NCBI RefSeq assembly: GCF_036373705.1
Contig: NC_089858.1
Coordinates: forward strand, 29,656,249-29,720,248
Length of the DNA stretch: 64,000 bases
Source: Amia ocellicauda
Lineage: Eukaryota; Chordata; Actinopteri; Amiiformes; Amiidae
Direction: 5' to 3'
Positions 3,601-54,600 of the stretch are shown here, one piece after another. The notes under the pieces were generated by a model. The model saw only the letters and a list, made by a program, of their open reading frames with translations. It ran no database searches and was not told the origin of the DNA. The position numbers were made by a program, and so were the translations under genes. Each line of letters opens with the position of its first letter. Position 1 is the stretch's first letter.

Positions 3601-4221
3601 CTCTGCCCCCTCGCCTTGGGGCCAGAAGAAGAGTGGTGTTACCTTATGGTGATGACATCCCCTTTGTCTCCCTGGATATTCCAGCTGCAGTTCATCCCTG
3701 CAGGGTAATTGAGGGGCCAGGAAGGGCTGTAAATGACTCCTCTCCTTTCTGTGTGCTGTTCCACCTTCCCACTGCATGCAGCTACAGACAGACAACACAC
3801 AAATACAGACAACACAAGAGTCAGCGAGAGCAGTCAAAATCCTCCGGGAAGGCAGTCTATAGAGAATTCCAGGGCCTGTCACTGGGGCAAGTCTCACCAA
3901 TCATCTAACATATTCTTATTCGCAAAGACTGGCCCTGTTGTGCTCATGTTGGAAGGTCCCCCCACCCCCACCCCTCTCTACAAAGAAAACATAAGGTTTC
4001 ATTCCCTCATGGATTCCGAAATGGAGTGTTTAACTTCAGATTGGACATTTCTCGCCAAAATAACAAACAGAAAATCGGTAATAGCTACCCTGTACTTTGT
4101 CAAATGTCAGCACTGTGCTACTGGACAAGCTTTAGAAACCTCCATATTCTGGCAACCCTTGTTTCAATGTTTGTCCTCTTGCTGCACTGGAGACAGTTTG
4201 TAGCTTGGAGGGTTTGTATTG
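620..4221. other. Non-coding stretch, probable lrp3 intron
   Basis: AT-rich DNA with no exon I can recognise. It holds a run of 19 T at 3137-3155. Short open frames at 1247-1562 (both strands) and 1925-2215 (+) have no recognisable motifs and no convincing splice context. If the exon at 19998-20073 is lrp3 exon 1, this lies in the first intron. Confidence 0.4.
3137..3155. repeat. Poly(T) run, 19 nt
   Basis: Uninterrupted T run. No retroelement body was recognised next to it, so it is not clearly a poly(A) tail of an insertion on the minus strand. Confidence 0.7.
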
Positions 4222-15955: not shown

Positions 15956-15958
<3 letters not shown>

Positions 15959-16009
<51 letters not shown>

Positions 16010-16020
16010 TTATTTATTTT
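15959..16020. repeat. (TA)n then (TTTA)n microsatellite
   Basis: About 22 TA units followed by about four TTTA units. Confidence 0.95.
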
Positions 16021-16571
16021 TTGCAACTTGAGCAAATAATGTTCTAAATTAAATCTTTATTGTAATTAATATAGTTTCATAGATTGTAAAAAATTTGCAT
16101 AAATAATACATGCAAGAACATTTTGTGACTCTTGAACAAGACTGTGCTTGTAAAGTCAAAGACTATTTGATTTTGTGTGAACAGGGAAACAAGCAGCTTT
16201 AACCGCATGAGTAGGATTTTACGGTGGCTTTAGATTATTTTTATAAATCACATTTGTGCTATATTGAGCTCAGTGTCTGACATTTTAAAAGATGATTGAG
16301 CGCACCAAGACTGTGTGGCAATAATGAAGTAATGACAGCCTGCAATGATATGGTGTCCTGCCTTCTGTTCTTTAGAAGAGACACAGTTTTGCTTATTGGG
16401 CTGAGGAGAAAAGTGCGCCGAGGCTTGGATGCATTTCTATGTCTGCTGTGGCATTTCTGAACCGAGAGGAAACGCACAGGGTGAATTCACTTAGATCCAG
16501 ATTCCATTTGCAATGTCAAGACTGGAATATTTCCCTTGGTAAAAATCAAGGGAAATAAGACTCAGAACAAG

Positions 16572-16572
<1 letters not shown>

Positions 16573-16617
<45 letters not shown>
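16573..16617. repeat. (AC)n microsatellite
   Basis: About 22 uninterrupted AC units. An open frame running through it (poly His-Thr) is an artefact of the repeat. Confidence 0.95.
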
Positions 16618-16618
<1 letters not shown>

Positions 16619-17236
16619 CCTTCCCATCCTTCTTTACTTCTGGATTCCAACTACAAACAAGCCCAGAGCTAGATGCTCAGAACATGCTGATCAGATTAAA
16701 AGTAAATGGCCACTCTCTATTTAACCAGCTGGGAATATTCTTTGCCAGTGGAACTGTCTGCAACATTCATCTTAATGGACCGAATGCAGTATCATTATAA
16801 CATAAGGGACAATGCCATCACTGGCTTCTCTGTTGTAATGCCCTTTATTTCTTACCTTGAAGCAAGCAAAACTATGTCTTGTTTCTGTACATTTCCCTAT
16901 TATTTCTAAATGGGTGGGAAAAAAGGGATTAAAAAAAAGTTTTATTTTACTTTACACAAACAATGGTGGTAACATTTACTGATCCCCACATATCTGTTTA
17001 TGTTAAATGAAGTTGATATTTTAAATCCCTGAGGAATCCTGTAAACCAATACCCTTCCTATTGCTACAGTTCAGTCTGATTAGTAGATTGTAAATTATAA
17101 CAGTCATTGCATTCCCTTGATAGCATTCATTCTATGAGAGAAGAACAGAGGTTGGGTCACAATCAACTTCTTTCTCTTATGAAATGGACCCTTAATCAAA
17201 TTATTACTTTACTTTTAAATATAAATAGAGGAGGAA

Positions 17237-17261
17237 ACACACACACACACACACACACACA
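17237..17261. repeat. (AC)n microsatellite
   Basis: Twelve AC units. Confidence 0.93.
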
Positions 17262-17920
17262 ATGGGAAAGCCCATATCAATCACAAGAGTCTCCCCTAAC
17301 AAATAAAACTCTCAGCTACTGCCTTTCAGTCTTGAAGTCATTACCTGCTGGAGCAGAGCCAAGCCACCATTGAAAGCAGCAGTTCGCAGGACCAGTCCAG
17401 AGCCCATTAATTCTTGGGATTGTTGGCAAAGGATCTGTTTAGTAACATGTCTCAAAAGGGCAGGCTGAAGGAAGGGGCTTATTTTAGTTTTTTCTGCTTT
17501 CATTTGAAAACCTTCTCTGCAGATTATGTGAAAACACTTGCCTATTTATTACTTTATTATTCAATGTCCCTACATCAAACTGGATACAACTCATTACAAG
17601 CCTCATTGCTAATTACTCAAACATTACCTGTGGTGTCAAAGACAAGAATAGATCACTCAACAAGCGGTTTTCTTGTTTATCTTGTAAAATTCCCTTATTT
17701 GTGCAGCAACTGCATTGGTCATAGAAAGCTACTATAATTTAATATTGTTAACTGTAATGAGAGGCTCAAACTGTAAAAGAAGTATATTGTGTATTAATGT
17801 TTCAAAAAAGACCTTGACCACCTTGAACAGAAGCATCTACTAAATGACTTAAAACTATAACTCAATGATACTAAATTACTTAAGACTAAAACAATAGCAA
17901 TAATATATTATAATAATAAT

Positions 17921-17923
17921 GGT

Positions 17924-17966
<43 letters not shown>
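17921..17966. repeat. (TAA)n microsatellite
   Basis: About 13-14 ATA/TAA units, preceded by a shorter imperfect TAA stretch from about 17910. Confidence 0.93.
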
Positions 17967-17967
<1 letters not shown>

Positions 17968-19924
17968 AAACAATCAACAATGAAATCCATTAATTCATGT
18001 AAACATCCTTCAAATAGGCCAGAAAAAGACAAAAACTACATTTATTTAACCCTATCCATACCACTTGATAATATCCAAGCACTTCATTAAATCAACTTGA
18101 GCAGAGCAAAAAGCTAACAATGAAATAGTCACTACTGGGGAGACAAGCTGACCCAGTAATAAAGAAATTAGTTTGCAGGGAAATTGAAATATAAATGTAA
18201 ATGAGTTTCCAGAACTGTCCTACCCTACCCTTACCCAACCTGTGGAGCCCAGTGATTATTGCCAAACCATTTTGTTGTTTGCTGTTTGATGGTCTTCCTA
18301 CATAATTCACACAAACAAAATCTGTGTCAATGGTTTACTACTTTTAGAAGAACCAAAAGATGTCAAACTCTAGATCATGTCTGTATCATGTCTTGTGGCT
18401 TCCTGAGAACTATCAAGGAAGCACAAAACATCCTTTCCTTAAGGAACAAACGGGATGAGAATGCGACTTTGTGCAGATCCCCATTGTTCTGGGTTCAGAT
18501 GGGTTCAGCAAAGGGGTAACAGAGTTAGAGTAGGTGTCCATTTGGCAGTGCTTGCTGCATTTTAATCAAGTCTCTCTCAAATTGACTAGGGCTGTCATTC
18601 TGTTATGGCTGTTAGACTTCACATTTTAATCAGAATATCCACAAATGATACCCCATTCCGGAGCAGTTTCAGTAAACTAAGACATTGACTGTGATATAAC
18701 CAAGCGAATGAAGTCTGCATTCAAACACCTTACAAGCAGAGCTCAAAACTGAGCCACCCCAATTAAGGGAGGAAAAACAGGAGACTTTTTTCAGGAGCTG
18801 TCTGCTACTCATGGCTCCTCTTTTTGTTATAATTGGATTGTTTTGCTTCACAGAGCGTTTAGGCCCCTAACTGAGACAGCAATGGGATCTTATTAGGCTT
18901 TCTACAGAACAAGGAAAGGGATTATTCAAACATGAGTCCTAGCCCGTCTTTGTGAAGATGTGAGCGTGTTAACTCCAAAATGAAGAAATAATGCTAAATG
19001 ACAAAGTTGTTGTGTTTCCCCCTCTCATCACAAGATCCTTGTTCATTGTGGATCTACAAATGTTATAGTACCCCTATGTGTAATGCACTGCGGGAACTGG
19101 ATCACTGTTCAAAGGGATCAATCCCAAAAACGGGAAGAGTCCTTGCAGTAAACCATATGCGCACACAGCGAGAACAAGTCAGCATGGGCTGCTGGGGAGA
19201 AACGTGTCTGTATCCGAGTCAACCAGTTCAATACTAAAATCCCATTTAATACCTTTAGCGAGGGGATTATCACAGCGTGGCAGGACACGGCCAAGCCGCC
19301 CTCCGCGCCACCTTCCAGCACAAACACGAGTGGGGCGCCAGTGTGCCAGCTGTCCGACTCAACCGCAATACTGGGTTACTGATGTTTCTTTTGTTTTTAC
19401 ATGTTTTATTCTGCGCATCATCTTAACATAGTTTGCAAACGGACGCCCACCTATTGTAGATGGACAATAACGTTCATAAGGTTATTATAGTTGATTGAAA
19501 TCAGAGATGGCTACAATCTAAACAAAGTTGCTTTATTTACATGTATTTCTTGTTTGGGGTGTCAACGTCACAAGGAAAGATGGTTAGAAATCATTATGTT
19601 TTAAATCACCCCTGTCAAGTGGGTAGCATTTTAATTTTAATATAGCGGGCCAGATGCGCCATATACAGTGTAAAGCTGGTGTGTAGTGACACTCAAAGCG
19701 CAGTATACCTCTGTAGCTACAGCAGTGTGAATACTGATGGTTACTAATTTGTTTAGCAGAGTTACACAACCTTATAAAATGCCAAGCTGCACATTCACTC
19801 GGACAATCTTGCTCAGCATCGTCTTGTGTCGGGCAGACTTTCCAAACAGTAAATCAAACCAGGTTTTGTACAACCCCAGTGTTGCTTGTGGTCTGCGGTA
19901 TAGTAAATAATTGCATTGCACTGT

Positions 19925-19949
19925 TGTGTGTGTGTGTGTGTGTGTGTGT
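19925..19949. repeat. (TG)n microsatellite next to the lrp3-like exon
   Basis: About 12 TG units, starting roughly 50 bp downstream (on the minus strand) of the splice donor at 19997. Confidence 0.93.
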
Positions 19950-19997
19950 TTTGTCGTGGCGGTTTTGTTGACAAAGCATGCACAAACTGACACTTAC

Positions 19998-20073
19998 CAA
20001 GACAAACCAGAGCAAAGCGAAAGAATATCCATTTTATCTGTGGGAGCTCCGCAGTTGCGATCTTCTCCATCAT
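19998..20073 (-). CDS. lrp3: Probable lrp3 exon 1 (signal peptide exon)
   Basis: From an ATG at 20073 (a second ATG follows at once) the codons read MMEKIATAELPQIKWIFFRF then ALVCL, ending one base into a codon at a consensus donor GTAAGT (19992-19997). The hydrophobic stretch suits a signal peptide. It resembles the start of mammalian LRP3 as I remember it (MEK..A.A.L ... VVCL), with the intron at the same point. LRP3 is a CUB- and LDLa-containing type I membrane protein of the LDL-receptor family. Context supports this: in human 19q13.11 the order is GPATCH1, WDR88, LRP3 on one strand, and this exon is next in line here, under a CpG-rich promoter. No CUB or LDLa exon was found in the remaining 20 kb, so intron 1 would have to exceed 20 kb. 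Similarity is short; a different secreted protein is possible. Confidence 0.55.
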
Positions 20074-20459
20074 TTGCAATGCCCACACGCTTCTTTTGTC
20101 ATCCTGGGGATAAGATTAAGACACATCTGCAGCTTTCCTTGTTTGGGGGGGTGTTTTGAGCTCAACACAAATGTGATGTCGCTTGCTCAGGTACCGTAGC
20201 TAAATCATAACCCCCAATTTAGCCCACAGAACTGAAATCTACATTGAAATGCATAGGGCTGGCAGCTCAAGGTAATACAATTCCCTTCACCTAAGCAATA
20301 CACATGCCACCGTCAATGCCTCAAAATAGCTGGTGACTCCGTGCATGTTCACTCATGGTTAAAATCCTCCTCGTATTTTAAATCTGTACAAGTCAGTGCA
20401 CATCTTCTCCACGCATGCGGTCAAAGCAACTTAAAATATTCCCATTGCGTTATTGTCCC

Positions 20460-20790
20460 TCCGATCAGTGCATGTGTCTGTTTGACAAGGCATCGCTGCT
20501 CCTCTTCAACAACAAACAGCAGCCGCTACACGACGCGCCGCCGCCGGACTGAGCCGCCTCCTCTGGGCGCCTCTTCCGCGCATCCCCCGCCGCTGCGCAC
20601 GCCAGGACCCCCAGTCACACACAACCAGAAAAGAAAAGGTGGAAGAAGAGAACAAAAAAAACCCCACTGGCAGCAGAAATTCTCATTTTTCAACTTCCTG
20701 TCCTGACCGTGTCATCGCATGGCAGCCGCGCAGGTGAAAACGCAACACGACTGGCCCCGGTGTCCGAGGAAGAGCACGTCTGTGACAGGC
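20460..20790 (-). promoter_or_regulatory. CpG-rich promoter/5' UTR region
   Basis: The stretch around 20520-20600 contains well over ten CpG dinucleotides in about 90 bp, and CpGs continue around 20725-20775. The rest of the window is strongly CpG-poor. It sits 400-700 bp upstream of the lrp3-like ATG on the minus strand, the expected place for a CpG-island promoter and 5' UTR. No TATA box was identified. Confidence 0.55.
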
Positions 20791-21225
20791 TGTGGCCACA
20801 GGGCAACACTTTTACATCATTTTTGCATCTTCGGGCTTTTTTTTCATAACAGAGCCGTTTTCTTTCCCTTGAAATATGCCCGTTTTTCTGGGACTGTTAT
20901 GAAAATGTTGCTGTCAAATGCAGCCCTCTTGTGGGCGGAGGGCTACATGACATAACTTGCATACCCAGCTTCTGTCTGCTGGCTGTACTTAATAAACCTG
21001 CATGGACAGCAACGCATCATGAAAGACATGTTTCCCTCTTCGCTCGGAGACACGACAGCGCGTCCCTGGGAGCAGCAGCCGAGGGGCCACAGTTCGGACT
21101 TCTATGGAAAGAATGACGTCATTTTTTAATTTCGTTTATGTGCACTGACTACAGATTTGAGTGCGGCTAGGCACTGTTATGCAAATGAGCAATGCATCAT
21201 ATATTTTACTTGTTTTCCTTTTCCC

Positions 21226-21228
<3 letters not shown>

Positions 21229-21263
<35 letters not shown>
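21229..21263. repeat. (AT)n microsatellite
   Basis: About 17 AT units, between the lrp3-like promoter and the 3' end of the CAP-domain gene. Confidence 0.95.
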
Positions 21264-21267
<4 letters not shown>

Positions 21268-21501
21268 CAACCATGGTACCATCTTATAAAGGCTCATAAA
21301 GTTGTGAAAAAACACGTGTCATTTTTATTTTTTATTTTTGTTTTTTAAAACCGCAGATACATTTGCAGATTACCAAGGTCAGTGGTGGTTTTCTAAGATG
21401 TTCAACAAGATTGGTTGGTGCTCATTATTTGTTTGTTTGTTTGTTTATTAATAACACTACTGACTGATAACAAATACACTACCCAATGAAGTATTTCATA
21501 T

Positions 21502-21507
21502 TTTATT
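21502..21507 (-). terminator. Candidate poly(A) signal AATAAA for the CAP-domain gene
   Basis: AATAAA on the minus strand, about 360 bp past the stop codon of the candidate last exon and about 970 bp past the last well-supported exon. Placement is plausible, but no transcript end can be seen. Confidence 0.3.
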
Positions 21508-21866
21508 AAATTAGTCACAGATTTACAAACGATTAATGCAAATTAATGTGCAAGTGTGCAATAATTAAAGTCAGATTTCATAGCAAATAAATAGTAAAAT
21601 AATAATCATTACAGATGTGTGTGTGTGTCTGTGTGAGAAATCTACATGCTGTATCAACAGGATCTTTCAGGGAACAACATCTGAGATTATAATCAATACA
21701 TTTACAAATTAGATATTTACTTTTTTCTATATTGAAGCAAACAATGACAAACAAAAACACGTGGCAGGTTCTTAAGTGATCTTCATTGACAAGTGAGCAG
21801 ACAGACACTTATAAGTACATCAGAGACAAAGTCGCTGGAGCCAGTAATGAAACCAGGCAAAATTCA

Positions 21867-21982
21867 TCAATATGTCCACCTCCCAGTTCTGCTAGGCAAA
21901 AAATTACAAATCCATAAATCAATCACAAATAGCAACAGCACCAGTATAAACTTAGAATACAGCAAAACTGTCAAGCTGAAAA
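21867..21982 (-). CDS. Candidate last exon of the CAP-domain gene: hydrophobic tail
   Basis: An acceptor (GACTCTCACACAG) ends at 21983. If joined to exon 9 (which ends one base into a codon), the phase fits and the reading is VFSLTVLLYSKFILVLLLFV then IDLWICNFLPSRTGRWTY and a TGA at 21867-21869. About 24 consecutive residues are mostly hydrophobic, so this would be a membrane anchor. Evidence against: the hydrophobic codons are AT-rich and could be chance. Without this exon, exon 9 could simply read through its donor and stop at TAG (22469-22471) after GKT. Confidence 0.33.
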
Positions 21983-22479
21983 CTGTGTGAGAGTCAGGCT
22001 CAGTGACAGGGCTGTACACTGGTAGAGCGAACACAGTGCATTTGACGTTGCCGTTTTATTTGCATGAGTGGCACTTGTATAGGCCTGCTTCAGTAGCTTA
22101 ACACAGTGATCATTTGTGGTCTAAAAACAAACTTTGAAATCTATAATAAAAGGCATATTCATATGACTCTGAGTATTATTACTATGACTAAGACTACTAA
22201 TAATAATAATGTATGGCACAGTGCAAACATACTACTAGTACCATTTACAACTTCACAATATTTATTACAAATACAACTAAACTTTTAACTACTACTATTT
22301 CTACTACAATACTAATACCAATACTACTATAAACTCTATCACTAGTAATAATTAAGAATAAAACAAGATTAGTTCAAGTCTATGAACAGTATGTCTAAAT
22401 GTAAATGGGCCCATTTGCTGTTGTGCTACTGGACACACTGTGCCGTTTTTGTTCACTGAAAGAGCCAGCTATGTCTTAC

Positions 22480-25400
22480 CGCAGTGCTCCCCGTGGCGGC
22501 CAGCCTGGCACACACACTGGCACAGCCTGGTGTTCAGGAAGCCCTTGTGGTAACAGATCTTTCCACCGCAGCACTGGGGGGCACTGGGAGTGTTCCTGAA
22601 AGGAGCTGGGGCAGAAGACATGGCCTGGGGTCACTCACCACCATGCCAAAACCATTCATCACAGACACAACAGAAAGACAGCTGATATGACGGGGTGTTC
22701 GTATGCCTAAGGAGTCCCAGTGGTGTTAAGCCAATCTGTCAACCTGCCCTTCGTAGAAGAGGAGATGTCACTGGCTCCACTCCCAGGCACACAAAGCAGG
22801 CCCCTGTTAGTCCAGGATCTGCAGAGAGGGCGGCTGCACCATCCACGAACCAGAGCGTCAGACAGAAAAACAACTGCTGGGGGATGTCTATTCTGCTCTA
22901 TTGCAGCCCAGGGACCTCCAAGTAGCAGATGTCAGCTGAAGGGTAAGTGTGGACCACAGCTTTCTGTGTGAACTGATGCACTACTGGTGTCTGTGGTGGG
23001 TTTAAAAGAGCAAGCTGGCCAAGGTGCCATCTCCTTTCTGTCTGCATGCATGGTAGTACAAACACAGGAAAACCTAGTGGGCAATTTTATTTAAATTTGG
23101 GATGACGCATACTGTTTAAAGCAACCCCACAAAATGATTTCCTGCACCTCGGACTGCTACACTACCCTGGGCTGCTGATTAATCGTTTTTTGTTTCAGGA
23201 CGATGCTGACATTCTGCAGTTTTTTCCTTGTAATTAAGTTTTCCTTTAGTTGCGTTGCATAACATACCTTAACACAGGTAACACTAGGGAAAAGCTGCTT
23301 ACTCTGGAATTGAGTGGATTTATGCAACTGATCCCCGATCCTGCTACATCACGTCTTCTTCCCGATTCAAACTTCCCCAAACAGGAGCAACACATGCTGA
23401 GAGTCACAATCCCACTCCTTAGAAGCGTGTTAGTCATGCACTGTGCACCAGTGTTGATCACGCGTTATGTAAGGGCTGTGAATCAGACATGATTAACTGT
23501 AATCTATCCCACCATTCAGAGACCCGTGACATCCAGCAGTCTCTGCTTACCGCACTGTCCGCATCTGGCCCTGCACTGCTCCACTCTAACGACAGCGCAG
23601 TTGGGTGTGTAGAGTTTGGAGCAGAAGCTTGGCTCGGTGTCTTCACAAGCCTCTGGAACAGCAAAGCACAGCGTACAGTGTGGTGAGACACAGGCCTGGA
23701 GAGAGACACTACCTGCACGTCAGTCAAGCCTATCAGAACGAACAGCAACTGGGTAGGTTCGAGCTAAGAGACTTTCTGGAGCAATGTCAAACCACCCTTG
23801 ACATGTGATTGAGAACACTGATTATTATTTAAACTATATTGACCAAAATTAATGTCCTTTTTTGACTCTTATACTAGCACAAGCGGGGGGAAAGTGCTCT
23901 GTGATTTTCCCTTGCCAAAAACATACATTGACATATATTTTCAATTTTCCTAAGTTTCATCCTTGGTGATGTAAAAATATTTTTGGGAAATCCTGACAAA
24001 TACAAACTGGACCATACCTGAATAATCACTGGCTTAGTAATTTACACACACTGTCTCTCTTTATTTTAACCTCAATCCATTACATTGTGCATGTTCCTTA
24101 AGAATTTACTTTGTCTTTTTAATTATGTCATAAGCCCAGAGATGACATGTTTTTTGTATACAGTGAGGGAAAAAAGTATTTGATCCCCTGCTGATTTTGA
24201 ACGTTTGCCCACTGACAAAGAAATGATCAGTCTATAATTTTAATGGTAGGTGTATTTTAACAGTGAGAGACAGAATAACAACAACAAAATCCAGAAAAAC
24301 GCATTTCAAAAAAGTTATAAATTGATTTCCATGTTAATGAGGGAAATAAGTATTTGATCCCCTATCAATCAGCAAGATTTCTGGCTCCCAGGTGTCTTTT
24401 ATACAGGTAACGAGCTGAGATTAGGAGCACTCTCTTAAAGGGGGTGCTCCTAATCTCAGCTCGTTACCTGTATAAAAGACACCTGTCCACAGAAGCAATC
24501 AATCAATCAGATTCCAAACTCTCCACCATGGCCAAGACCAAAGAGCTGTCCAAGGATGTCAGGGACAAGATTGTAGACCTACACAAGGCTGGAATGAGCT
24601 ACAAGACCATTGCCAAGCAGCTTGGTGAGAAGGTGACAACGGTTTGTGCGATTATTCGCAAATGGAAGAAACACAAAATAACTGTCAGTCTCCCTCGGCC
24701 TGGGGCTCCATGCAAGATCTCACCTCGTGGAGTTTCAATGATCATGAGAACGGTGAGGAATCAGCCCAGAACTACACGGGAGGATCTTGTTAATGATCTC
24801 AAGGCAGCTGGGACCATAGTCACCAAGAAAACAATTGGTAACACACTACGCCGTGAAGGACTGAAATCCTGCAGCGCCCGCAAGGTCCCCCTGCTCAAGA
24901 AAGCACATGTACAGGCCCGTCTGAAGTTTGCCAATGAACATCTGAATGATTCAGAGGAGAACTGGGTGAAAGTGTTGTGGTCAGATGAGACCAAAATCGA
25001 GCTCTTTGGCATCAACTCAACCCGCCGTGTTTGGAGGAGGAGGAATGACCCCAAGAACACCATCCCCACCGTCAAACATGGAGGTGGAAACATTATGCTT
25101 TGGGGGTGTTTTTCTGCTAAGGGGACAGGACAACTGCACCGCATCAAAGGGACGATGGACGGGGCCATGTACCGTCAAATCTTGGGTGAGAACCTCCTTC
25201 CCTCAGCCAGGGCATTGAAAATGGGTCGTGGATGGGTATTCCAGCATGACAATGACCCAAAATACACAGCCAAGGCAACAAAGGAGTGGCTCAAGAAGAA
25301 GCACATTAAGGTCCTGGAGTGGCCTAGCCAGTCTCCAGACCTTAATCCCATAGAAACGCTGTGGAGGGAGCTGAAGGTCCGAGTTGCCAAACGTCAGCCT

Positions 25401-28400
25401 CGAAACCTTAATGACTTGGAGAGGATCTGCAAAGAGGAGTGGGACAAAATCCCTCCTGAGATGTGTGCAAACCTGGTGGCCAACTACAAGAAACGTCTGA
25501 CCTCTGTGATTGCCAACAAGGGTTTTGCCACCAAGTACTAAGTCGAAGGGGTCAAATACTTATTTCACTCATTAACATGCAAATCAATTTATAATTTGCG
25601 TTTTTCAGGATTTTGTTGTTGTTATTCTGTCTCTCACTGTTAAAATACACCTACCATTAAAATTATAGACTGATCATTTCTTTGTCAATGGGCAAACGTA
25701 CAAAATCAGCAGGGGATCAAATACTTTTTTCCCTCACTGTATGTCTATACTTGCAGTCTGTAACCCCAAGAAACAGAAAAGTTGTTTCTAAAAGTAAAAA
25801 AAAAAAACAGGCTTAAGGACACACAGATTTACATAACATTAAACATGAACAAAAAAAATGTACATCAACACATTTAATAGATAATAGGACACCCCCCACC
25901 ACCCCAAAGGAATTAGTCATAATACACACTTTGGTCCACACTTTTAAAGATATTTGCCAGGAGCACTTTTTATTTTTCTGAAGGGAATTAAAAAAGGGAA
26001 AAGAAATGCTGAAAACATTTTCTGTGAACCACACAGAAAACATCTTAAAATGCTGATGGAAGGATTCATGAACTCCGGGTTTAAGAGTTGCCGCTTTAGC
26101 AGGATTAAATTACCCCTGAACACCGCAGAGAAAACTTTGTTCTTAGTTCAAGGCTCAGTGGATCTTGTTACTGTCAGCAGAATTGATTTCACCTGAACAG
26201 TCAGAGTAGTCCCAGCCCTCAGCACACGCGCAGCTGCAGGTGGTGTTTCTGAGAACTCCACAGTTCCTACACTGCAGTGGACAGTCTGCAGACACAAAGA
26301 GCACATATATAACACACACAGGAATCCGCCTGGTATACAACACACACACACCAGTCTGTATCCGCCTGGTCTTTACAAGATCAGGCCATAAGCATGTGGT
26401 CAATTCTCAGATCTACTGTATGCTTTTGCGATTCAAGTATGTTATATTGTAGTTTTCTTACTTTAAAACACTCTACATTATGTACCTTTGTACGGTTTGA
26501 TGTTTTTGAAGCAATTCTTCTTCATGCCATCCAGGAGAATGAATAATAATTAATAAAAAAAAAATTGGCTGTGGATGATGCTGATGATATCTTGAGGTTT
26601 TTGACTACCTTCTTTCGAAACTTAATCCACATACTGTGAACGTAAAGCATTTTACATAGTTTCAGGGCAAAAGGCATTTGCCATTTGTATTCTGTCTCCT
26701 AGATAGCTTTGAAAGAATGTAAAAACAACCAATTTAACAAGTCATCAGCACAGTAACCAGAATAAAAATGTTTTCCACCTGTGATAAGCACTTCTTTTCT
26801 CACAATGGTCCTGCCTTGAGAATAACTTACCACAGTCTCCGCCAGGACACTCAACTGCAAACAGAAAAGAGAGACAGTTGAAGTGTAAGAAGGCCCCACA
26901 TCCGTTTCTGTTTTGTTTTAAGTGTTGTATACTGAGGAAATCTCCCAGCCTTACTGCACAAGCCATTCTCACACCAGCCTTGGCCAGAGTCACACTTTGA
27001 GCAGGGATCTCCATTCATGTAAGGCACCTTGGGTTCCAAGCCCTTATTTCCCCTGCAATTACAAGAGACACATTAACCTGCTGAGTGTCCAGCAAAACAT
27101 CTACACAGACAACACTTCATCACATCACAGTTGTATTATGGAAAACTCCTACATCTGGACTGCCACCCCACAGCTTTTATAGATGTCTCAGTTAGTGAGG
27201 AGCTTTAACCAGAAGTTATTTGACCAAATAAGTCCAATAATTGAGTTAAATAAGTTTATAGACAAAACTCATATCTGAAAGCACTTCAGCAGCTGGACAC
27301 CGCTGGCATTGAGGAAAGCTCAACTTGGGAGAAAATATTGTCTAACTACAGCGTCAATTAAGATAAAGAATGGATTTAATATGCTGCCATTATTGGATTT
27401 GGGCACACCCACGTATTCAAAGAACAGCTCCCAAAAAAACATTACAAAATACGGAGAGGGGAGGGGAGGGGGGTTCATCAAAGAGGAAATTCTCACCTGG
27501 GACCATAATTACAGACAACATAAGTAAACCGTCCAGGACAGCGACTGCCATTCACGTAACCACAGCCCACAAACTGTGTGCGTGCCCAAACAAGCTGCGG
27601 GAAAGCAGAGAATGATGTCGCCTGAGGAACTGTTCATTTCCCACTACCAACAGCAGTTACCAGCTGCATTCATTTACACATGGGCTGCCTCCAAAAAAAC
27701 AGCAGAATCGCAGCCTTGCACCAGGTTTCTACGGATCCCTGGCAAAATCCACACACAGTGATAGCAGAGGTCCCCGATGCCCTTGCGCTATCAGGCCCCT
27801 GTCCCCACGGCCTGTTTAAAAATAGCTTCACCATTACTCATCCTCAGCAAGCCAGAGGAATCAAAACTTTCCACCCAACCTGGGGTGAATCACAGAGGTC
27901 AGCTAGGATTATTATGTCACTGACGGCAGCATGGTTGGCTGAAAATCTGCAATAGGAAATGGTGATTTTATCATTTAGAAGAGAAACGCCTCTGGCTGTA
28001 GACAAGGTGCCGTGATTACAGCCATGCCGAGGAGATGGACTGATGCATCTCCTGAAATCTTTCCTGGCAAAATAAGGACTCCTTTTATATTCCAGCAAAA
28101 TAACAGGGGGAGAAAAGATTGTAACTGAGCGGTTGCTAGGCTTGTTGGATTGACTTCTACACCTCTTCAATCTGTGTAACTACTGCCAAATTCAAAGAGA
28201 CACCCAATCCATTAAAGCAAATGTGCCAATGATTCTAATACTGTATTCTTAATATGAACCCGAACCCCCTACTGGCTTGCTCTCCAGTTATGATGTTTGG
28301 AGACGAGCTGTGCGTACTTAATGCCAGCTCTTGGTATAAAGCCTGCATGTTTCATCACTAGATGAATGTGGGATCCCTACTGAGCGCAGGTGTCATATGG

Positions 28401-30621
28401 CAGAGCTTTCCCCGTGGCACTGCTAATTCTCCCTGGATAAAGAACCATCTGCTGAACCCTCCCTGCAGGAAAGGTTCTGCACGTTTTCATTATCGCTTAC
28501 GCCAGTCAAGTACAGCGCAGTACGGCTTGTTAGGCATAGAAACTGAAAGATCTGTATTCTCGCCGACTAACACTTAACTGTGTGTGCTGTTCCATGTGAG
28601 CCAGTGTGCTTGGCTGTACTTCACTGTTGTACAGATTGCCGGTTGTGTTAATCAAGCAGAAGCAGAAAATGGCCGTACTTATAACTTATAACTTTTATGA
28701 AAGTTTGCTATTTTAAAGTGGAGGGTATCTTCTCACCATTTGCCACACTAATACCCGAGTTTTACTTTGCCACGGTTCCACATTGGTTTCTTAAAACATC
28801 AGCTTTACGAACACTTGAATCAGATACCCTAGTGATCTCCTCCGGTCCAGGCTAAAGATTAGATGATCTATGGAAGCAGAGATGCTGCTGGAGGAAGTTG
28901 TGCTATTTGAGTCAGACTGACTGTGGGGGCAGCTGTGTGCATACCTGAGTGTAGTGTCCACAGACGGGGCCTAAGCAGAGACTTCTCTTGTAGTCGTACC
29001 ATCGCTCCTCTTCCCACCAGGCCCTCACAGCCTGCAAAGTGCGGGCTTCCACCTCCAAAGAAAAACACAGTGCTTCCTGTCATTTTATACTAACATATAG
29101 ATAGAGCTTATTTCACCCGGTGAGTGAAGGCCAGGCACAACAGTTTGGCTATAAAGGTTTGGGATAAATACATTAGTCTATGAGGTATAATATTAGTAAT
29201 ATGGACTTAACTTGTCACATTGTGTAAATAAAATATAAATAGATAAACAAACAAATAAATGGATTGAGGATGAGGATGAGGATTCAATTGAGATGTTTAT
29301 TGAGTGATTCTAGGAAATCACATTCAACAAAGGTGTCTGGGTATAATAATTATTATTAATTTATTTAATCATCATCATCATTTGAATTCCTTTCATAGAA
29401 AACAACGAATGAGTCTTCACATTTCACAAAATCCATATATTTTTTGCCTCCAGAATACACCAAGACTTTACATATGTCTTGCATTATATTTACAGTATAT
29501 TTTACAGAATACAAGCGTTATTTGTATATAGCTTTAAGCAGAGAGAAAACGTTTTGATTGAATAATGAACTGGTGACATGGAGAAGCAGGTGGGCGAAGT
29601 CAATTTTCTTTAAAGAAGGAAAAGAAAGAAGGGATTTTAAGAGTTAAGAGGAGTTTGGAATCCTTAGCATTCATTTTTAATTATATCCAAATGCATTGAA
29701 GGCTTCTAGCTATAGCTACTGTTGTACAATTAACTATTAATTGCAGATTAGAATATATATTTTTTTTTACTTTCTATTGTTAAAATACATTCTTACAGAG
29801 TCCAGACGCGATGGGTCAGTGCTCATGAATTTGTTCAGATTCTGGCCGATCCCATCAAACGGGGGGGTCTCTGTCTTCATGTGTCCATGTTCAAAACTGC
29901 AGAGGTCAGCCCAGTCCTGAGCCATGCTGGCCAGCCCGTCGTGCCAGTCCTTTTGGTGTCAGGTTGAAGTGTTATAATGAAGGGAAATAGGGATTAACAG
30001 CGCACCCACAAGTCGCAAATGTACCACATCAGACTTAAGAGCGGCAATCGGCACCTCCAAGTTAAAGCACATTTTAATTAGATAATTGTTTTGAAAAATC
30101 AATCACTCCCATCTAAACAATAAACCAAGCAATGCGTTAATAATTAAAACAGCACTGTAAACTGTGGATTTACACTTGAGTCGGATTTCAATATCATGAT
30201 TTATTATATTCGGTCATAACTGTAAACCGTAGTTATTATCCAAGTAGAATCAACAAACAAACAAATAAGGTTGAGTCTGTTTGTTAGAATGAATTTGATT
30301 TGATTTGTCCTGCCACATAGCGGTACAGGAACCGCTGGTTTTGATTAGCCTGCTGTAATCATATTAGCATCATTACCATCACTCTCCCTATAGTTTCTCC
30401 TTAAATCACCAGTATTACACATTATCCAAGCCTAGCGAAACAATAAGGAAAACATACGAAGAGCTTACCAGCCTTTTCATGTTAGCAGCTTGTGGCTCCA
30501 CTTGCTTTCTGTAATTATTATGCAAATCCAACAGGATTTTGATTTCTTCTGGTGTGTAATCAGTTTTTCTTCCATGCAAACCAATTACCAGGGTTAACAC
30601 GATTAAACACAGAGGGAGCAT
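22480..30621 (-). CDS. Secreted CAP/SCP-domain protein with EGF-like and ShKT-like modules
   Basis: Nine exons were joined by eye: 30469-30621, 29797-29949, 28945-29031, 27497-27594, 26955-27052, 26831-26854, 26193-26285, 23551-23652, 22480-22605. All phases agree. The ATG at 30619-30621 opens a signal peptide ([17 protein letters not shown]). The CAP domain spans exons 1-4: [19 protein letters not shown], then [22 protein letters not shown], the CAP1 motif GHYTQLVWA, and CAP2 [17 protein letters not shown]-like hinge follows ([10 protein letters not shown]...CENGLC). Then come an EGF-like module ([14 protein letters not shown]), a six-cysteine ShKT-like module (exon 8) and another EGF-like module ([14 protein letters not shown]). 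CAP proteins are extracellular; the exact role here is unknown. CLEC18 shares CAP plus EGF modules, but no lectin domain is seen. The 3' end is uncertain (see 21867-21982). The tetrad position usually read as GENL is GQNL. Confidence 0.75.
24389..24485. repeat. 42-bp perfect inverted repeat (hairpin) upstream of the transposase
   Basis: Arms at 24389-24430 and 24444-24485 are exact inverse complements, separated by 13 nt. It lies between the left terminal repeat and the transposase ATG, so it would fold in the 5' UTR of any transposase transcript. Confidence 0.95.
24528..25541 (+). CDS. Tc1-like transposase, 337 aa, apparently intact
   Basis: The start is the ATG at 24528 in a good Kozak setting (CCACCATGG). 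The reading frame extends 28 codons further upstream only through the hairpin and has no ATG there. The protein begins [20 protein letters not shown] and has a helix-turn-helix ([17 protein letters not shown], about residues 23-39) and a second DNA-binding part. The catalytic residues are D153 (WSDET), D241 (QHDNDPKYT) and E276 (DLNPIETLW), giving the DD34E spacing. The glycine-rich box [13 protein letters not shown] lies near 184-196. It ends ANKGFATKY and TAA at 25539-25541. D153 matches Sleeping Beauty D153, but D241 and E276 sit three residues earlier than D244 and E279. This implies a three-residue deletion at about residue 173 (RRRN|DPKN), a region that may not be essential. It inserts TA-flanked DNA by cut and paste. 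Confidence 0.93.
26831..26854 (-). other. 24-nt microexon of the CAP-domain gene
   Basis: Flanked by a TTTGCAG acceptor and a GTAAGT donor. It adds IECPGGDC in frame between the hinge and first EGF-like module, including two cysteines. Entry and exit phases are both 1, so it could be skipped without shifting the frame. Its coordinates are included in the gene entry. Confidence 0.6.
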
Positions 30622-31431
<810 letters not shown>

Positions 31432-32188
31432 TCAAGGTGAAAAAAAAAGTTATCATGAAAGGTTGAAGTAGCGTTATGTTTTGATTTATTTGTTTTGATC
31501 TCGATACAAATATTTATAGACAGCATTTTGATGTCTGGAGCTTTGGCCTTTGACAAATATTGAACTTATTTGTTTCAAAAAGACTGGTTTATCGTATTCG
31601 TTAAAAAAAAAAAATTCAGCACGTAATACTCTCATTGGACATGGCAGAAAAGCGGCTCAATGCGTTAGATTACATTACAAGTTATTATGCTCAGGTTTAG
31701 TCTTACCAATGCTCTGCACATGCGCCTTACTGCGAGTTTGTCCGTAAAACAATTAAAGACAATATTAGTTTTCTATAAATTCTCCATAAAACAATAACAT
31801 TTAAAATTAAATGTTATGATAAATATAGGCTACAATAATACATATGATATATAAATACATTTAAAACAACAGAAAACAAGTCTCTCATAAATTGCTAAAT
31901 GGAATATATCACGTAGGCCTAATACAAGTTTATCAGCAGAACAAGCCCATTAGATTAGAATTGCAGGCAATTCAAGAAAGAAAAGTGCAAGTCTAGAGAT
32001 AATAATAAGTAAGAACTTCACTGTATTTTGACCAAGGTGTGTAATGAACAATTATTATGAATTACTTATCGAATCATACAAACTGCGAGGCAATTGCAAT
32101 ACATAAGCATCAGAAGAGACAACAGATCACACAGCTTCATGTCCTATACTGAAGTCCCATCAGTGTGTCTGCAGCTCCCCAGGTGAGG

Positions 32189-35100
32189 TCAAAGAGCAGG
32201 TGGGGCTGGAAGGTAATTTCGGGAAGGAGCCATCAGTCGACAGAAGACACACTTGGAAATGAACTCGGAATTCTCCATCTGGGTGATGGAGAAAGGCTTT
32301 TTGCACAGTTCACACTGAAAGGGGATACAGACCAGGGTAAGAGTTAGTGGATCTCAAAATGTTACCCTTATATCCTGTATTTGGGCAATTCACTCATTAA
32401 ACCACTGTCTCCCCTTATATACGTTGCCCAACATTTGGGTAGGTGAGTTGCTACAGGGGAAATGTTGTCCAAGTAGTAACGGTTTGTTATAAGGGTGTAA
32501 TCTGTTGCATTTGTAAATGTAAATTTTGATGTATTAAAGTGAAATCCATTTTGGATACTTTGAAATAGGGGCATGTAAACCTAATATTTAATATATTCAC
32601 ATAGAGAAAGAATACTGAGGATGTGTCCAGGAGTGAATACAAATAAATCATCTTAAGCAACAAATATTTCTGCCGTGCTATATTACATCAATAGAACATT
32701 TTATATGAAGTACTGTATGTATATTTGTATTAATTATTAGCTCTAGTATATAACATCATTCACATCAATAGTATAGTAATAATAGGGTCATATAACATGA
32801 ATAACAACCTTGATTATTTGAAATCCTGCGGCCTTCCTTGTTTCAATGACTGCTGGAATGTGGTCCGAGTGTTCGATGTTCCACATTCTCAACGTGGTGT
32901 CCTATGGCAGGTAAACTGGTTTTAACAGGCAGAATGACGAACTTACATTACTGACATCTTGTTACCATATGATATATATAAAATATAAAAGAAGGCATGA
33001 AATCTTTAAAAATATAATAATTAAATACATACAAAAAATAAAATGTACAAAAGTGCAAAAACTCTCACTCTACTATTGTAAGGGAAGTAGTCCATTAGTG
33101 AAGCAATTACTTGTAGTATTACTCAGGGCTACATACATAATGTTATTGTTTCTTTTAAAGTATTGTGCCAAAGATGCTTGCATAGTTTGTCAATTGTTAA
33201 AATATGTACTATTTTACACAACATATTTTTTGCTGATTCTTAATGAAATTGCCTTTGTTATATGTATTGCATAAACAAATACATGCTTACAATGCTCTGT
33301 TCTCAACAATCATCCAGTGACGTTCTCTCTACATGAGATCTTCAAACCTGGTCCTTAAGGTTATATAGGTGGCATTTACTCAGCAGGTTAAGCCTATATT
33401 ATTCAATAAACAAATGGCCTAAAAACACATTCAGAAGCTCTGATGAAAAGAAAAGCAGAAGCCCCTGCATGACTTGGAACAAACCATATGGTGGAATTCC
33501 AAAACAATTAATAAGGTCTTTGACTATTCTCATCATAAAAGCTGAAGTGTTTAAAATCCTGTAAGCTTTACCTTAGAGCCTGAAGCAACCCATTTTTTGT
33601 CAGCGCTGATTGCAACATCCATTACCCAGTCCACATGTCCCTGGAGATTAGAATGAGAATCAATCAAAGCACAAACTAAAGAGACTTTACATAGTTGTGA
33701 ATTAACTCTATGGCCATGATTTAGCAGCCAGCCACAAAGGCATCAAGGCCACAGTGGAAAATAACTGCGCAAAATCAGCAGTTCGCTTTTGGTATCTATT
33801 TTGTATACAGTTATAATTAATTACCTTGAGAACCAGTTTTTTACAAAGTCCTTCCATGTCCCAGACAGTCACATTCCTGTCACAGGCGCCCGATACGAGG
33901 AGAGATGCTGTAAGATAATAGTGTTTGTTTGTTTCTTGTGTTTTCGTCAACTCTTATCTCTGCAGTGAGCAGAGAGGGTATGCGTCATACAAACAGAGTA
34001 ATAAAAGATAATAAAAAGACAGTCAAGCTGGCGATGTTAAGTCTACATTACTTAGCCTATTAACTTTCATTGATACAGTGTATGCAGGCATTTCATATTC
34101 ATATTTTTTATTTCTATCTTTTAACATATATCCCAAACAGCTATCTTTTGTGTGGGTGGAAAAAATAAATAAAGTTTACAGAGAAGTTTATTCTCTCTCT
34201 CTCCCCCCATCTTCTGTAAATACACCTAAGAAGTAAGTAGGTCAGAACATATTTAGTTTAAGGCATTCATCTGCTACCTATAAGAGCCTTCATTAAGAAG
34301 TGTCTCTATGCAATTTCATTAGAGTTTAATAAGCAAGTCTCCAGGTGGTGAAAGTGAGTGGCAGTTTGATAGATGGAGGGAAGCACACCTCCCCCAACAG
34401 CCTCCAAGTACAGAGACATTAAAGTCACAAAGGAGGTAAACACTTTTGTCAGGGATATACGAGATGGAAAAAAAAATGTTTTATGACTCTAAGAACAACT
34501 GAAACCCATATGATTACAAATGCATACACTGATGGCAACAAAAAGTAGGATACGAATGTATTGTGCCCATGTACCTGCTCAATTGATAAGAATGAAATAT
34601 TTCCCATTTTGTCAGACATGGTTGATTTAAGGATGCCCTATGAAACCTGCTGTATTGGGGCTCTCTAGGAGCGGAGTATGTGAGATCTCCCAGGCAATGG
34701 CAAATAAAATTAGACCTCTTGCCTTCTTCTTTAGAGAATGAACGGGAGACGAAAAGATAGTTATCAAAGGGGTCTCACAGTCCTGAGAGAAAACACTGGA
34801 GCTGATGTTGCCTTCATGCCCTTTGTGGAGCTTCACTCCTCCCCGAGAGCGAAACTGCCCTGTCTGGATGTCCCATAGCTGTAAAGTTTTATCCCACGAT
34901 GCCGTGCACAAGTGCCGCCCATTGCTGGTGAAACAGCAGTTGGAGATCACATTGGAGTGAGTGCTGGAATGGGAACGTGATCAAATGAGTGGAAAACCAA
35001 AACAGTAAGACATAAGGCCGCAAAGAAGAAATTACATTTGCCTTATCCTGATCATCAAATAAATACAATTAAGTAAACATAAAATCTTGTTTCTATCTGA

Positions 35101-51600: not shown

Positions 51601-54600
51601 AGACAGTTCAGGTTGCTGCAGTGCAGTCCTGTACAGTGCGGTACTGTACCCTTGGAGGTGGTGGGCAGGCTCTGTGCTGACGAGTCTCCTCCCAGTGCCC
51701 GGGCTGCGGGCTGCCTGCTCTCTGTCACAGTCAGGAAATTGAACACAGAGAATTTGTCTCTCTTCACCTTGGGGAGTCCAACGATTCCTGACCTGGGAAT
51801 CAATCAAAAGCAAGAGGATCTTAAAATGGGCCAATCTTCTCTGTGGCTTTCAGCAATGAATCAGTTGCAGTGCTACAGCGTTGTGAACTTTTCATCAAAC
51901 ATTTCTCATTAGGACTGAAACATCTAGTGCCAGAAACATTTTATGATAACAATAATTAATAATTAATGCTTAATAATATTTGTCTATATTTAAACAATCA
52001 TTCCCAATTTGAAATTGATATTCATATTTTCTATTAAATTACTATACATAATGACCATTGCATAGTTTGCACAGTTCTATTTTTATAAAGAAGGCCTATT
52101 AAGACATTACAAAGAAAGAAAACAATACTTTATGATTGTACCGTAGTCTGCATTGATTAAACCAAATGAAAATAAAACACGTTTGACTTGGTTTACAGCA
52201 AAGACTGCAGATTTTAATTCACTTCAGATTTTTAACAAATGTTTAAAAAATATGTTACTACATTTTCCTGAATATTTACTTTATGGTAGGCTTTGAAGTC
52301 GACCTATTGCAGCTACTTTGAACTGAAACACACCCTTTGTAATATTGTTCCCATTTAAAGTAATATTTTACCATCATTACAATATATAACCATCACTAAT
52401 GCTGGTGGTACTTTCAGGAAGGCACATGTTTACTTCTATAAATCATTTAAAACTGCCCTGAAGCATGCAGAGCTTTGGAAAACAATAAAATTATATTACA
52501 TTCTTTGGAGATCCTGAAAAGTAATCAAAGGTATGTAATATTTGCAAATAGTGCACTGTACTTTTTGACTGTGTACTCTGCCCTTCCTATTCATTTTAAG
52601 CAGACCAACAGTAAGGGGATTAATATTCCTACTGTTAAAAATAGCAAAATAGTAATTGTGTCCATAATTGGAATCCACACCCACTCCGTTTCGTTTTAGT
52701 GCCAACTCTTTGTCTTCTGGGTATTGGCTCAGCAGAATCTTTAACTGAAGTTAATTATGGTTAATTAGGCGTTAATAAGGGAATTTAATAACCACATGTA
52801 GCACTGATCTACAATCACAAACATGTAAGGATGAATGTTGGGACTCATGAATGTAATGAACCAAACTACTTTCTGATGGGTTCTTATGCCTTGGTTCCTC
52901 AGTGGTAAGAATGCCCCGTGCCTCCTCAAAATTACACAAAACAGCTATTGTGATCAGTATGTGCTGAGGACAGCTGACGTACCCGGGGTAGGGGTCAGGA
53001 ATGTTAAACCTCTTGCAGAGCAGTTTGTCGGGGTGCCATTCGAATGTCTCTCTCGTCAGCTTCCCAAACATCTTCATCTTCACGGCTGCCTCTTTGTCAC
53101 CAACGTCATTCTGTGGGGGGAACCAACCAATGCCCAACTCAAACACTTCAAACTAGATCTCGATTTTTGAAACTACATGTAATGTCAAAAGTCTAAAACA
53201 CATTTTATGTACAATAAGATTTCGCACCTCAGGAATTGTTTTCTTTAACCCTTAATAATTAAATTATATTCACACTTCCTAATTTTACTGAATTATCAAA
53301 CCATTGTATTCAACCTGAAATACAATACATCTGCTTATTATTACCATCCCTCTAAAAGTCCAAGCCTCTAGTCTGTTTGCCCCCCAAGTGAAGCAAGTTT
53401 GCTGTCCCAGTTTACTCCAAGGACAAAGGACAAAACCCTTAATTTGGCAGAGGCTGCCTACAAATTCAAAAGCACTGACAGAAATTACAGTTCCACTACA
53501 CTACACCTTAACTGAACCACAACTGCGAGAGATTCAAGATGCCAGTAGGCAACTGCTAATCTCTGCCATGGGCCTAAACATAGCACACCAAGTCCAGCAA
53601 AACAAGGGGGCCAACCTCCGGGTCCCGCGGAACTTCAACCGTGTCTGTGTCATCCTCATGTCTCCCGCGCGTGAACCTGCAGGCCAGGGTGGAGTTGGTG
53701 GGTTTGTAAAGCATGGCAGAGCGAATGAACTCATCCCTCTCGCGACCGCGCTCCCACTCAGTCATCTGGGGATCCAGGCTGGAATCCAGGGCATCTAAGG
53801 GAGATAACACACACACCATCACATATCAGGTGCTGACATTTCCAATTATGCAAAAAAGAAATCGATACATAGAACATAATAGTCCCAAGAGATCTTAAAT
53901 CATTTTTAAAGGTGAATATTCAGTTAGATTCAGCATTTGCATACCTACTGAATTTATCGGGGAAGTTCCACTTTTTAGTTTCATGTCATTAACTTTTTTT
54001 CTGAGATATTGGACTGTCTGTGTAGCCAACTATTACAAATACACTTTCACTTCCAAAAGATACAAAAACAAGTATAGTATATTGTCCAATTTATACACAA
54101 AATGTTTATACTTGCTTATGTTTGACTGGAAGTGAACCTATATCACATAGGCCACTTAAATTATTAAAAGGATTAAAATGTGACATTAGATATTGCTGAT
54201 AAAATATTTTGTTAACGAAATGTTGAGTATTTATATGATAAATAACCACCTTAACAGTGTGTTTATACCTTTGGCTAATTAATTAATTTACAGCTCTAAC
54301 TGGATATATGAAAATCAGAGCAGGGGCACCACCTTTCTGGCCCTGTTTGAGCTTGGTGATGTAGTTGTCGTAGCGCGTCTGCTTCCCGGGGTTCTTCTCG
54401 AAGGGTCTAAATGTGGGACTGCTGTCCGTGGAGACACCCTCCCAGGCGCTGAGGGCAGTATCCTGGGTGGCGGGGGGTACGAAGCGGTTGGAGAGGGCCT
54501 GCTGGGAGGAGGTTTTCGCTGCTGCTGCCGCTGTCGCCACCATTGATGCCTTCCTTGCCTCTGCTGCCTGCCTGATGCCCGCCAAGCGCTCCTTATCCTG

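Follow-up and report, generated by a model that had tools for sequence, protein, structure and literature searches.

We describe a gene of Amia ocellicauda, read from the sequence of a 64,000-nucleotide window (the whole stretch of DNA analysed). It appears to be a genuine fish gene, present in one copy, whose product is secreted or sits at the surface. It comprises ten exons on the minus strand (30621..21867), and the protein starts with a signal peptide and continues with a CAP domain, a CRISP-like hinge and two EGF-like modules with a ShKT-like one between them, perhaps followed by a membrane-spanning tail. The reading that we favour, somewhat above even, is that of a functional-looking, single-copy vertebrate CAP gene apart from CRISP, GLIPR1, GLIPR2, PI15, PI16, R3HDML, CRISPLD and CLEC18. 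Its product would most likely be an extracellular disulfide-rich binding protein, and CLEC18 is probably its closest relative.

Gene structure and neighbourhood

All nine introns of the CAP-EGF-ShKT gene are GT-AG. The entry phases of exons 2 to 10 (0,0,0,2,1,1,1,1,1) agree with each other, as the original prediction had claimed. The nine exons that it counted are all present, but the number is ten, including a microexon of 24 nt. Exon 1 (30469..30621) carries the start codon, the signal peptide and a 22-residue stretch at the start of the CAP domain, and has a phase 0 donor; the N-terminus reads as hydrophobic and the Pfam CAP match begins at residue 31. Exon 2 (29797..29949) continues the CAP domain with an 11-residue stretch followed by GQNL and RLDS and contributes the metal-site residues His72 and Gln87. 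The position of its phase 0 donor has no equivalent among the splice sites that we read in six other types of CAP gene. Exon 3 (28945..29031) leads from a 14-residue stretch to CGHYTQ. An alternative acceptor would start this exon at 29052 and add VEARTLQ. With acceptor 29031, the joined protein covers positions 1-117 of the 117 in the Pfam CAP profile (E 7.2e-25, 88.6 bits; curated cut-off 21.1), and with acceptor 29052 it scores E 8.5e-24 and 85.1 bits; we prefer 29031 for its CAP score, which is 3.5 bits better, although the choice is uncertain. A full domain above the cut-off places the protein in the CAP superfamily.

Exon 4 (27497..27594, donor phase 2) completes the CAP domain with a 33-residue stretch, and exon 5 (26955..27052, donor phase 1) encodes the hinge, which runs from an 11-residue stretch to WCENGLC. 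The next four exons are symmetrical (1-1): the microexon 6 (26831..26854), which encodes IECPGGDC and has both splice sites near consensus, exon 7 with the first EGF-like module (26193..26285), exon 8 with the ShKT-like module (23551..23652; C-x7-C-x7-C-x7-C-x3-C-x2-C) and exon 9 with the second EGF-like module (22480..22605). A Tc1 element lies inside intron 7. Exon 10 (21867..22018) would supply a C-terminal hydrophobic segment and the stop codon. It is the weakest part of the model, with 40% G+C, and the hydrophobic stretch could have arisen by chance. If exon 10 is unused, the frame of exon 9 runs to a stop after HCGKT. Exons 1-9 together have a G+C content of 53.5% (39% for exon 1 alone, 50-63% for exons 2-9), and the introns range from 31 to 48%. 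The joined protein contains HYTQLVWA and the second, 11-residue motif of the original prediction, whose signal peptide, full CAP domain and CRISP-type hinge were likewise borne out.

The EGF-like and ShKT-like modules were also found as predicted. Pfam recognised none of them up to E 10, so their identification rests on cysteine spacing. We scanned six frames of 22 sequences (267,502 bases), consisting of the window and 21 loci of the same genome, mostly CAP loci. The ShKT-like spacing occurred once, in exon 8, whose six cysteines end C-x3-C-x2-C in line with the ShKT spacing rule. The CxCxC EGF spacing occurred four times, namely in two exons of the window and in the two EGF exons of CLEC18, and the spacing C-x9,10-C-x-C-x-C-x8-C was confined to the CAP-EGF-ShKT gene and CLEC18. 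Against the PDB, the ShKT-like module had no match up to E 10, and a profile built from the EGF modules of the window and CLEC18 matched 34 sequences, of which most were common EGF modules and the best had E 0.001. A single-sequence AF2 model of exon 8 has two short helices and is weak (pLDDT 64, pTM 0.31); for exon 9 by itself the model was unusable (pLDDT 61, pTM 0.15). In total, 32 cysteines lie between residues 68 and 311, which span the hinge and the EGF-ShKT-EGF stalk.

The gene is flanked by lrp3, a WD40 gene at the position of wdr88, and gpatch1, all on the minus strand. Its predicted location between wdr88 and lrp3 holds on the lrp3 side, where the exon at 3645..3782 contains the start of a CUB domain (CUB E 4.1e-7) and matches a human LRP3 query with E 1.8e-22. 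The alignment with this query continued to 3848 across a stop. A first exon of lrp3 may lie at 19998..20070, tentatively suggested by a weak match (E 38) and a donor site that could be read. The upstream neighbour is an open frame with WD40 sequence (34630..34980) in the expected place and is called wdr88 by position only. Beyond it, gpatch1 was confirmed as an additional neighbour by an open frame at 52775..53152 (PDB 9s2f GPATCH1, E 3e-23).

Relation to the known CAP families

Counterparts of CRISP, GLIPR1, GLIPR2, PI15, CRISPLD, PI16, R3HDML and CLEC18 are all located elsewhere in the 988-Mb genome of this fish, and the CAP-EGF-ShKT gene is thus an additional CAP gene. The original prediction had considered that it might turn out to be a plain CLEC18 or CRISP orthologue with lectin exons elsewhere. 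It withstood this check, as CLEC18 and CRISP exist separately in the same genome. CLEC18 with its lectin exons (C9:32.616-32.620 Mb) shares the contig with it, at a distance of 2.9 Mb. Its four lectin-exon matches have 67-81% identity with the human query, and it pairs with human CLEC18 at 100/99 while the CAP-EGF-ShKT gene falls outside this pair; identity with CLEC18 was hence rejected. The Pfam C-type lectin domain had no match in the three minus-strand frames of 20700-30500 and 5800-20700, and a regex for lectin motifs found none on the minus strand and one chance match on the plus strand, antisense to exon 8. A CRISP orthologue was rejected as well: two CRISP genes lie on C1, the six-cysteine module of this genome's CRISP ends C-x3-C-x-C and not C-x3-C-x2-C, and in the CAP-EGF-ShKT gene an EGF module intervenes between the shared hinge and the ShKT-like module. 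For the CAP domain and hinge, the best solved structure is GLIPR1 (E 1.7e-25). GLIPR1 has a C-terminal membrane segment, as the CAP-EGF-ShKT protein possibly does, but lacks EGF and ShKT modules and the extra CAP intron, and three tandem GLIPR1 genes are found on C21, so this identity was dropped. PI16, the best BLAST score, was dropped because PI16 lies on C5. A search of viral contigs with the protein returned a single match (L001), which we read as a chance EGWDYSDC motif inside a phage protein.

By architecture and map position, CLEC18 is probably the nearest relative, from which the gene differs by a ShKT exon between the two EGF exons and by the missing lectin exons, although the kinship is uncertain. 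Both genes share the CAP domain, the hinge and two EGF-like exons with the same cysteine spacing. They also agree in intron phase at HYTQ|, at SPG/GPR, and behind GLC and each of the EGFs. CLEC18, GLIPR1 and PI16 lack the intron that separates exons 2 and 3, and in CRISPLD and R3HDML it has a different phase. A tree grouped the CAP-EGF-ShKT gene with CLEC18 at 82/78, an unstarred value that comes with a long-branch warning; when CLEC18 was removed or GLIPR2 added, the gene had no supported place. In AU tests, placement with CRISP (p-AU 0.254), the PI15 group (0.215) or GLIPR1 (0.059) was not rejected. BLAST of the CAP region against seven human CAP families, run with the alternative exon 3 acceptor, ranked CLEC18 last (71.6 bits vs 94.7-102 for the other six) and singled out no nearest family. 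EGF comparisons with CLEC18 reached a shuffle p < 0.05 in six of eight cases, and the two position-matched pairs with fish CLEC18 are the two above this value (0.084 and 0.062). With the CLEC18 EGF pair as query, a search up to E 10 gave 15 matches, none of them an EGF exon of the window; conversely, below E 0.1 the EGF-ShKT-EGF cassette matched nothing but the exons of the window and did not retrieve the EGF exons of CLEC18.

The metal site differs from that of CLEC18. In columns defined from the GLIPR1 sequence, the CAP-EGF-ShKT protein has H72, Q87, E110 and H128, keeping both histidines and one glutamate, with the other glutamate replaced by glutamine. This H-Q-E-H tetrad is common to all five PI15/R3HDML/CRISPLD rows, whereas CLEC18 has S/T-W-E-H. 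We know of no EGF or ShKT modules in PI15, R3HDML or CRISPLD.

Possible function and origin

The signal peptide would direct the protein out of the cell. Its CAP domain, a conserved fold, could offer a groove for a lipid or sterol and bind a divalent metal via His72 and His128. For GAPR-1, zinc binding at the two equivalent histidines has been reported on the basis of calorimetry, simulation and mutants, and zinc was also seen in the GLIPR1 crystal (PMC6900432). The hinge and the EGF-ShKT-EGF stalk, which would stand in place of the CLEC18 lectin domain or the CRISP cysteine-rich domain, probably keep the CAP domain off the surface and bind a partner, either a protein or a glycan. The C-terminus may anchor the molecule in the membrane.

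As to origin, we tentatively consider that the gene represents one more CAP family of vertebrates. In this reading, which is doubtful, an ancient protein of the order CAP-EGF-ShKT-EGF arose near the CLEC18 stock, was fixed between wdr88 and lrp3 before bony fish and tetrapods split, and was lost from mammals. Among open-licence papers, judged by title or the opening of the abstract, none dealt with a vertebrate CAP-EGF-ShKT gene or with any gene located between WDR88 and LRP3. The combination of CAP, EGF and ShKT has, however, been published for molluscs, so this kind of architecture is known in animals. The type II CAP-ShK proteins of Cumia reticulata (CreCAP-ShK 4-7) combine CAP with poorly recognisable ShKT and with EGF-like modules (PMC6409789). 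Membership of this type is defined by grouping in a tree with Conus Tex31/Mr30 and genes of molluscs.

Rather unlikely, yet the best of the alternatives, is a CAP-EGF-ShKT lineage that dates back to early bilaterians, is related to these mollusc proteins, survived in some fishes but not in mammals, and does not have CLEC18 as its sister. The module set is the same by published architecture (PMC6409789), the ShKT is poorly recognisable by HMM in both, and the fish gene has a long branch to itself. On the other hand, the molluscs belong to another phylum, their module order varies and they carry an N-terminal spacer (PMC6409789); the likeness comes from architecture, not sequence, and since the EGF and ShKT modules lie on readily shuffled 1-1 exons, convergence could explain it.

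We consider it improbable that the gene stems from a duplication, confined to this lineage, of a PI15/CRISPLD-type or CRISP gene and acquired its EGF and ShKT exons through exon shuffling among the fishes. Its tetrad, its highest CAP identity (41%, to CRISPLD of the same genome), the unrejected AU placements and pairwise BLAST scores above that of CLEC18 would agree with such a duplication. The internal CAP intron, however, differs in place or phase, the long branch suggests an old split and the EGF spacing is of the CLEC18 type. A decaying pseudogene or a mis-joined set of exons is very improbable: although exon 10 looks weak and a Tc1 element interrupts intron 7, exons 1-9 are open with consensus splice sites and agreeing phases, exons 2-9 have raised G+C, and the CAP domain scores over its full length.

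CLEC18 is reported missing in zebrafish and Xenopus (PMC12871919), and CAP-EGF genes may therefore be prone to loss. In the CAP families encountered in this genome, the CAP domain is followed by no more than a hinge or by a short tail (PI15, PI16, GLIPR1), by a six-cysteine ICR (CRISP) or by EGF and lectin modules (CLEC18). To our knowledge, a gene with the architecture reported here is absent from mammals, which makes it a concrete candidate for a CAP gene that they lack. The combination of CAP, EGF and ShKT in one fish gene could reveal how CAP tails were exchanged. The relation between CAP structure and function is described as still poorly understood (PMC6900432, PMC6803662), and a naturally occurring protein in which CAP is combined with different modules would help to test what the CAP domain itself contributes.

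Gene model and genomic setting

The CAP gene lies on the minus strand of the window and comprises ten exons running from 30621 to 21867, with GT-AG borders at 9/9 introns and entry phases of 0, 0, 0, 2, 1, 1, 1, 1 and 1 for exons 2-10. The agreeing phases of the original prediction were thereby recovered, but its nine exons became ten; the one overlooked was probably the 24-nt exon 6. Two acceptors are available for exon 3. The preferred CAG (exon 3 = 28945-29031) yields a protein of 361 aa, a Pfam CAP score of 88.6 instead of 85.1 bits (+3.5) and a distance of 17 rather than 24 residues from GQNL to the next tryptophan; counted by eye, this distance is 15 or 16 in the human CAP proteins used for comparison. 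The other acceptor, a GAG with exon 3 starting from 29052, has the superior pyrimidine tract, gives 368 aa and may also be in use.

The gene shares its strand with gpatch1, identified via a PDB match (9s2f, E 3e-23), with a WD40 gene and with lrp3. WD40 matches were found between gpatch1 and the CAP gene, one of the scans covering two of the three minus frames of 31500-43500; they fit wdr88 without establishing that identity. An lrp3 exon (3645-3782) matched human LRP3 (E 1.8e-22) and CUB (E 4.1e-7), and its second-best match in the Amia ocellicauda genome was just 51% identical. A tRNA-Thr (AGT) gene (31350-31423, minus strand) separates the WD40 gene from the CAP gene. Intron 7 of the latter houses a Tc1/mariner element (24158-25742) with 155-nt terminal inverted repeats of 95% complementarity; its transposase frame lies on the plus strand and is open (HTH_Tnp_Tc3_2 9.2e-25, Sleeping Beauty HTH 5.6e-24, DDE_3 1.6e-14). 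A 48-nt inverted repeat (24389-24485) lies within the left end of the element. Tc1-like transposase fragments were also seen by eye in the ORF list at 8246-9575, inside the stretch between two lrp3 exons, and beyond that stretch at 1-471 (minus strand).

Modules and C-terminus of the candidate protein

Pfam recognized a full-length CAP domain and, up to E 10, nothing else in the protein or in the EGF and ShKT exons alone. GLIPR1 was the top PDB match (E 1.7e-25), followed by snake-venom CRISPs, with alignments extending through the hinge. Since Pfam is silent on the following exons, the EGF-like modules (exons 7 and 9) and the ShKT-like module (exon 8) rest on cysteine spacing. We scanned 267,502 bases in six frames, i.e. 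22 sequences consisting of the window and 21 loci of the same genome that were picked for CAP genes and hence non-random. The ShKT-like spacing C-x5,9-C-x5,9-C-x6,10-C-x3-C-x2-C matched once, in exon 8. The spacing C-x9,10-C-x-C-x-C-x8-C had four matches, two in this gene (exons 7 and 9) and one in each of the two CLEC18 EGF exons; as this pattern was derived from these same modules, the result speaks for specificity, not discovery, within the bases scanned. Exons 6-9 are symmetrical (1-1), as is usual for shuffled modules. AF2 returned two short helices at low confidence for exon 8 alone (pLDDT 64, pTM 0.31) and no usable model for exon 9 alone. The sequence of the ShKT-like module has no lysine in the loop between cysteines 3 and 4, where cnidarian ShKT peptides carry their pore-blocking lysine. 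A lysine is reported to be required for potassium-channel pore block by those peptides, yet many snake ShKT domains without it are still channel blockers (PMC4202326). Pore block is therefore neither suggested nor excluded for this module.

The protein may end at either exon 9 or exon 10. Ending at exon 9, it would terminate in HCGKT with an AATAAA at 22266; for exon 10, AATAAA occurs at 21507 and below. The hydropathy of exon 10 peaks at 2.44 over 19 residues. On the minus strand, 5 of 682 acceptor-like sites in the window, exon 10 among them, led into an open frame of 45-99 residues with a peak of at least 2.4 (plus strand, 3/615). With the required peak raised to 2.5, all 34 sites from 20070 to 22480 failed, exon 10 included. 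Given 34 sites and a rate near 1 in 160, a chance hydrophobic tail at this position is not unlikely. The G+C content is 40% in exon 10, 50-63% in exons 2-9 and 39% in exon 1.

CAP genes in the Amia genome and possible kinship with CLEC18

In the assembly (988 Mb, 385 contigs; window at C9:29656249-29720248), Pfam CAP gave at least 19 exon matches, one being the window gene. Matches on C1, C4, C8, C9:23.8, C21 and C24 were classified against human sequences. This yielded two CRISP genes (C1:45.13-45.14 Mb), R3HDML (C4:51.35), a CRISPLD gene (C9:23.81) and three tandem GLIPR1 genes (C21:16.366-16.383 Mb), two of whose three VVWAK exons have identical protein sequence; at the C8 locus, no relationship to the human CAP queries was seen. 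A GLIPR2 exon (C24:14.46; GHFTAMVWK...) was called by eye, GLIPR2 being outside the query set. In the R3HDML-like gene, the final CAP exon (C4:51352097-51352228) carries an in-frame stop and DNW where GNW is usual, and is possibly decayed or misassembled. The genome further contains PI16 (C5:0.725), PI15/CRISPLD1-type exons with the last exon in two copies (C2:21.84-21.87) and a CLEC18 gene whose exons encode CAP, two EGF modules and a lectin domain (C9:32.611-32.620 Mb). Seven other CAP matches cluster at C9:12.902-12.912 Mb; at 166 to 405 aa their open frames are uncommonly long, and they are possibly GLIPR2-like. The window gene is additional to all these named families. Searched against the same genome, its EGF-ShKT-EGF cassette (exons 7-9) matched its own three exons; six further matches, with E values from 0.36 to 4.3, appear fortuitous.

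CLEC18 and the window gene lie on the same contig and agree in CAP-hinge-EGF-EGF order and in EGF spacing. Their intron phases match at HYTQ| (0) and the SPG/GPR position (2), and likewise following GLC (1) and each of the EGFs (1); GLIPR1, PI16 and CRISPLD also have the HYTQ| and SPG/GPR-position introns. In shuffle tests beyond the cysteines, with CLEC18 as sole EGF family compared, 6/8 pairs of a window and a CLEC18 EGF module reached p < 0.05 (range over the eight 0.001-0.084, uncorrected for number): 4/4 with human CLEC18 modules and 2/4 with fish ones, where the misses were the position-matched pairs. The ShKT module, used as control, gave 0/4 (p 0.095 to 0.55). Against kinship, a search with the CLEC18 EGF pair gave 15 matches up to E 10, none of them an exon of the window gene, and the CAP region alone gave CLEC18 the lowest score among seven human families. 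In a tree built from 16 CAP domains (nine from Amia, window gene included, and seven human), the window gene grouped with CLEC18 at 82/78, a join that carried a long-branch warning.

Joining it elsewhere gave p-AU values of 0.046 for PI16, 0.059 for GLIPR1, 0.215 for the PI15 group and 0.254 for CRISP; it had no supported place in a tree lacking CLEC18 or in a 17-row tree with GLIPR2. Its tetrad H72-Q87-E110-H128 is identical to that of 5/5 PI15/R3HDML/CRISPLD rows; in the two CLEC18 rows the tetrad reads S/T-W-E-H. The exon 2-3 intron is in phase 0, in contrast to a nearby phase 2 intron in CRISPLD and R3HDML, and CLEC18, GLIPR1 and PI16 have no intron at this position. The window gene is best described as a separate CAP lineage whose nearest relative is perhaps CLEC18.

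Possible function and significance

Reading frame, modules by spacing and residues are direct observations; the functional steps are inferred. The protein would be secreted, its CAP groove could bind a lipid or metal ion and its cysteine-rich stalk might be the partner-binding part; a membrane tether is conceivable. Zinc is reported at the two equivalent histidines in GAPR-1 and GLIPR1 (PMC6900432), and yeast Pry1 in cholesterol export (PMC4921858). Human CLEC18 is described as binding glycans (PMC11103991) and sulfated glycosaminoglycans (PMC12871919); lacking a lectin domain, the window gene's product could not act through one.

CLEC18 is present in Amia ocellicauda, lectin exons included, whereas a 2025 report gives it from lamprey to human but not in zebrafish or Xenopus (PMC12871919). 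Mollusc CAP-ShK type II proteins are reported to combine CAP with EGF-like modules and a ShKT that is hard to recognise (PMC6409789), so the architecture is a variation on a known kind. The vertebrate search covered the Amia genome, and the gene is likely already in public annotation under an uncharacterised name. The new element would be a vertebrate with CAP-EGF-ShKT in a gene of its own.
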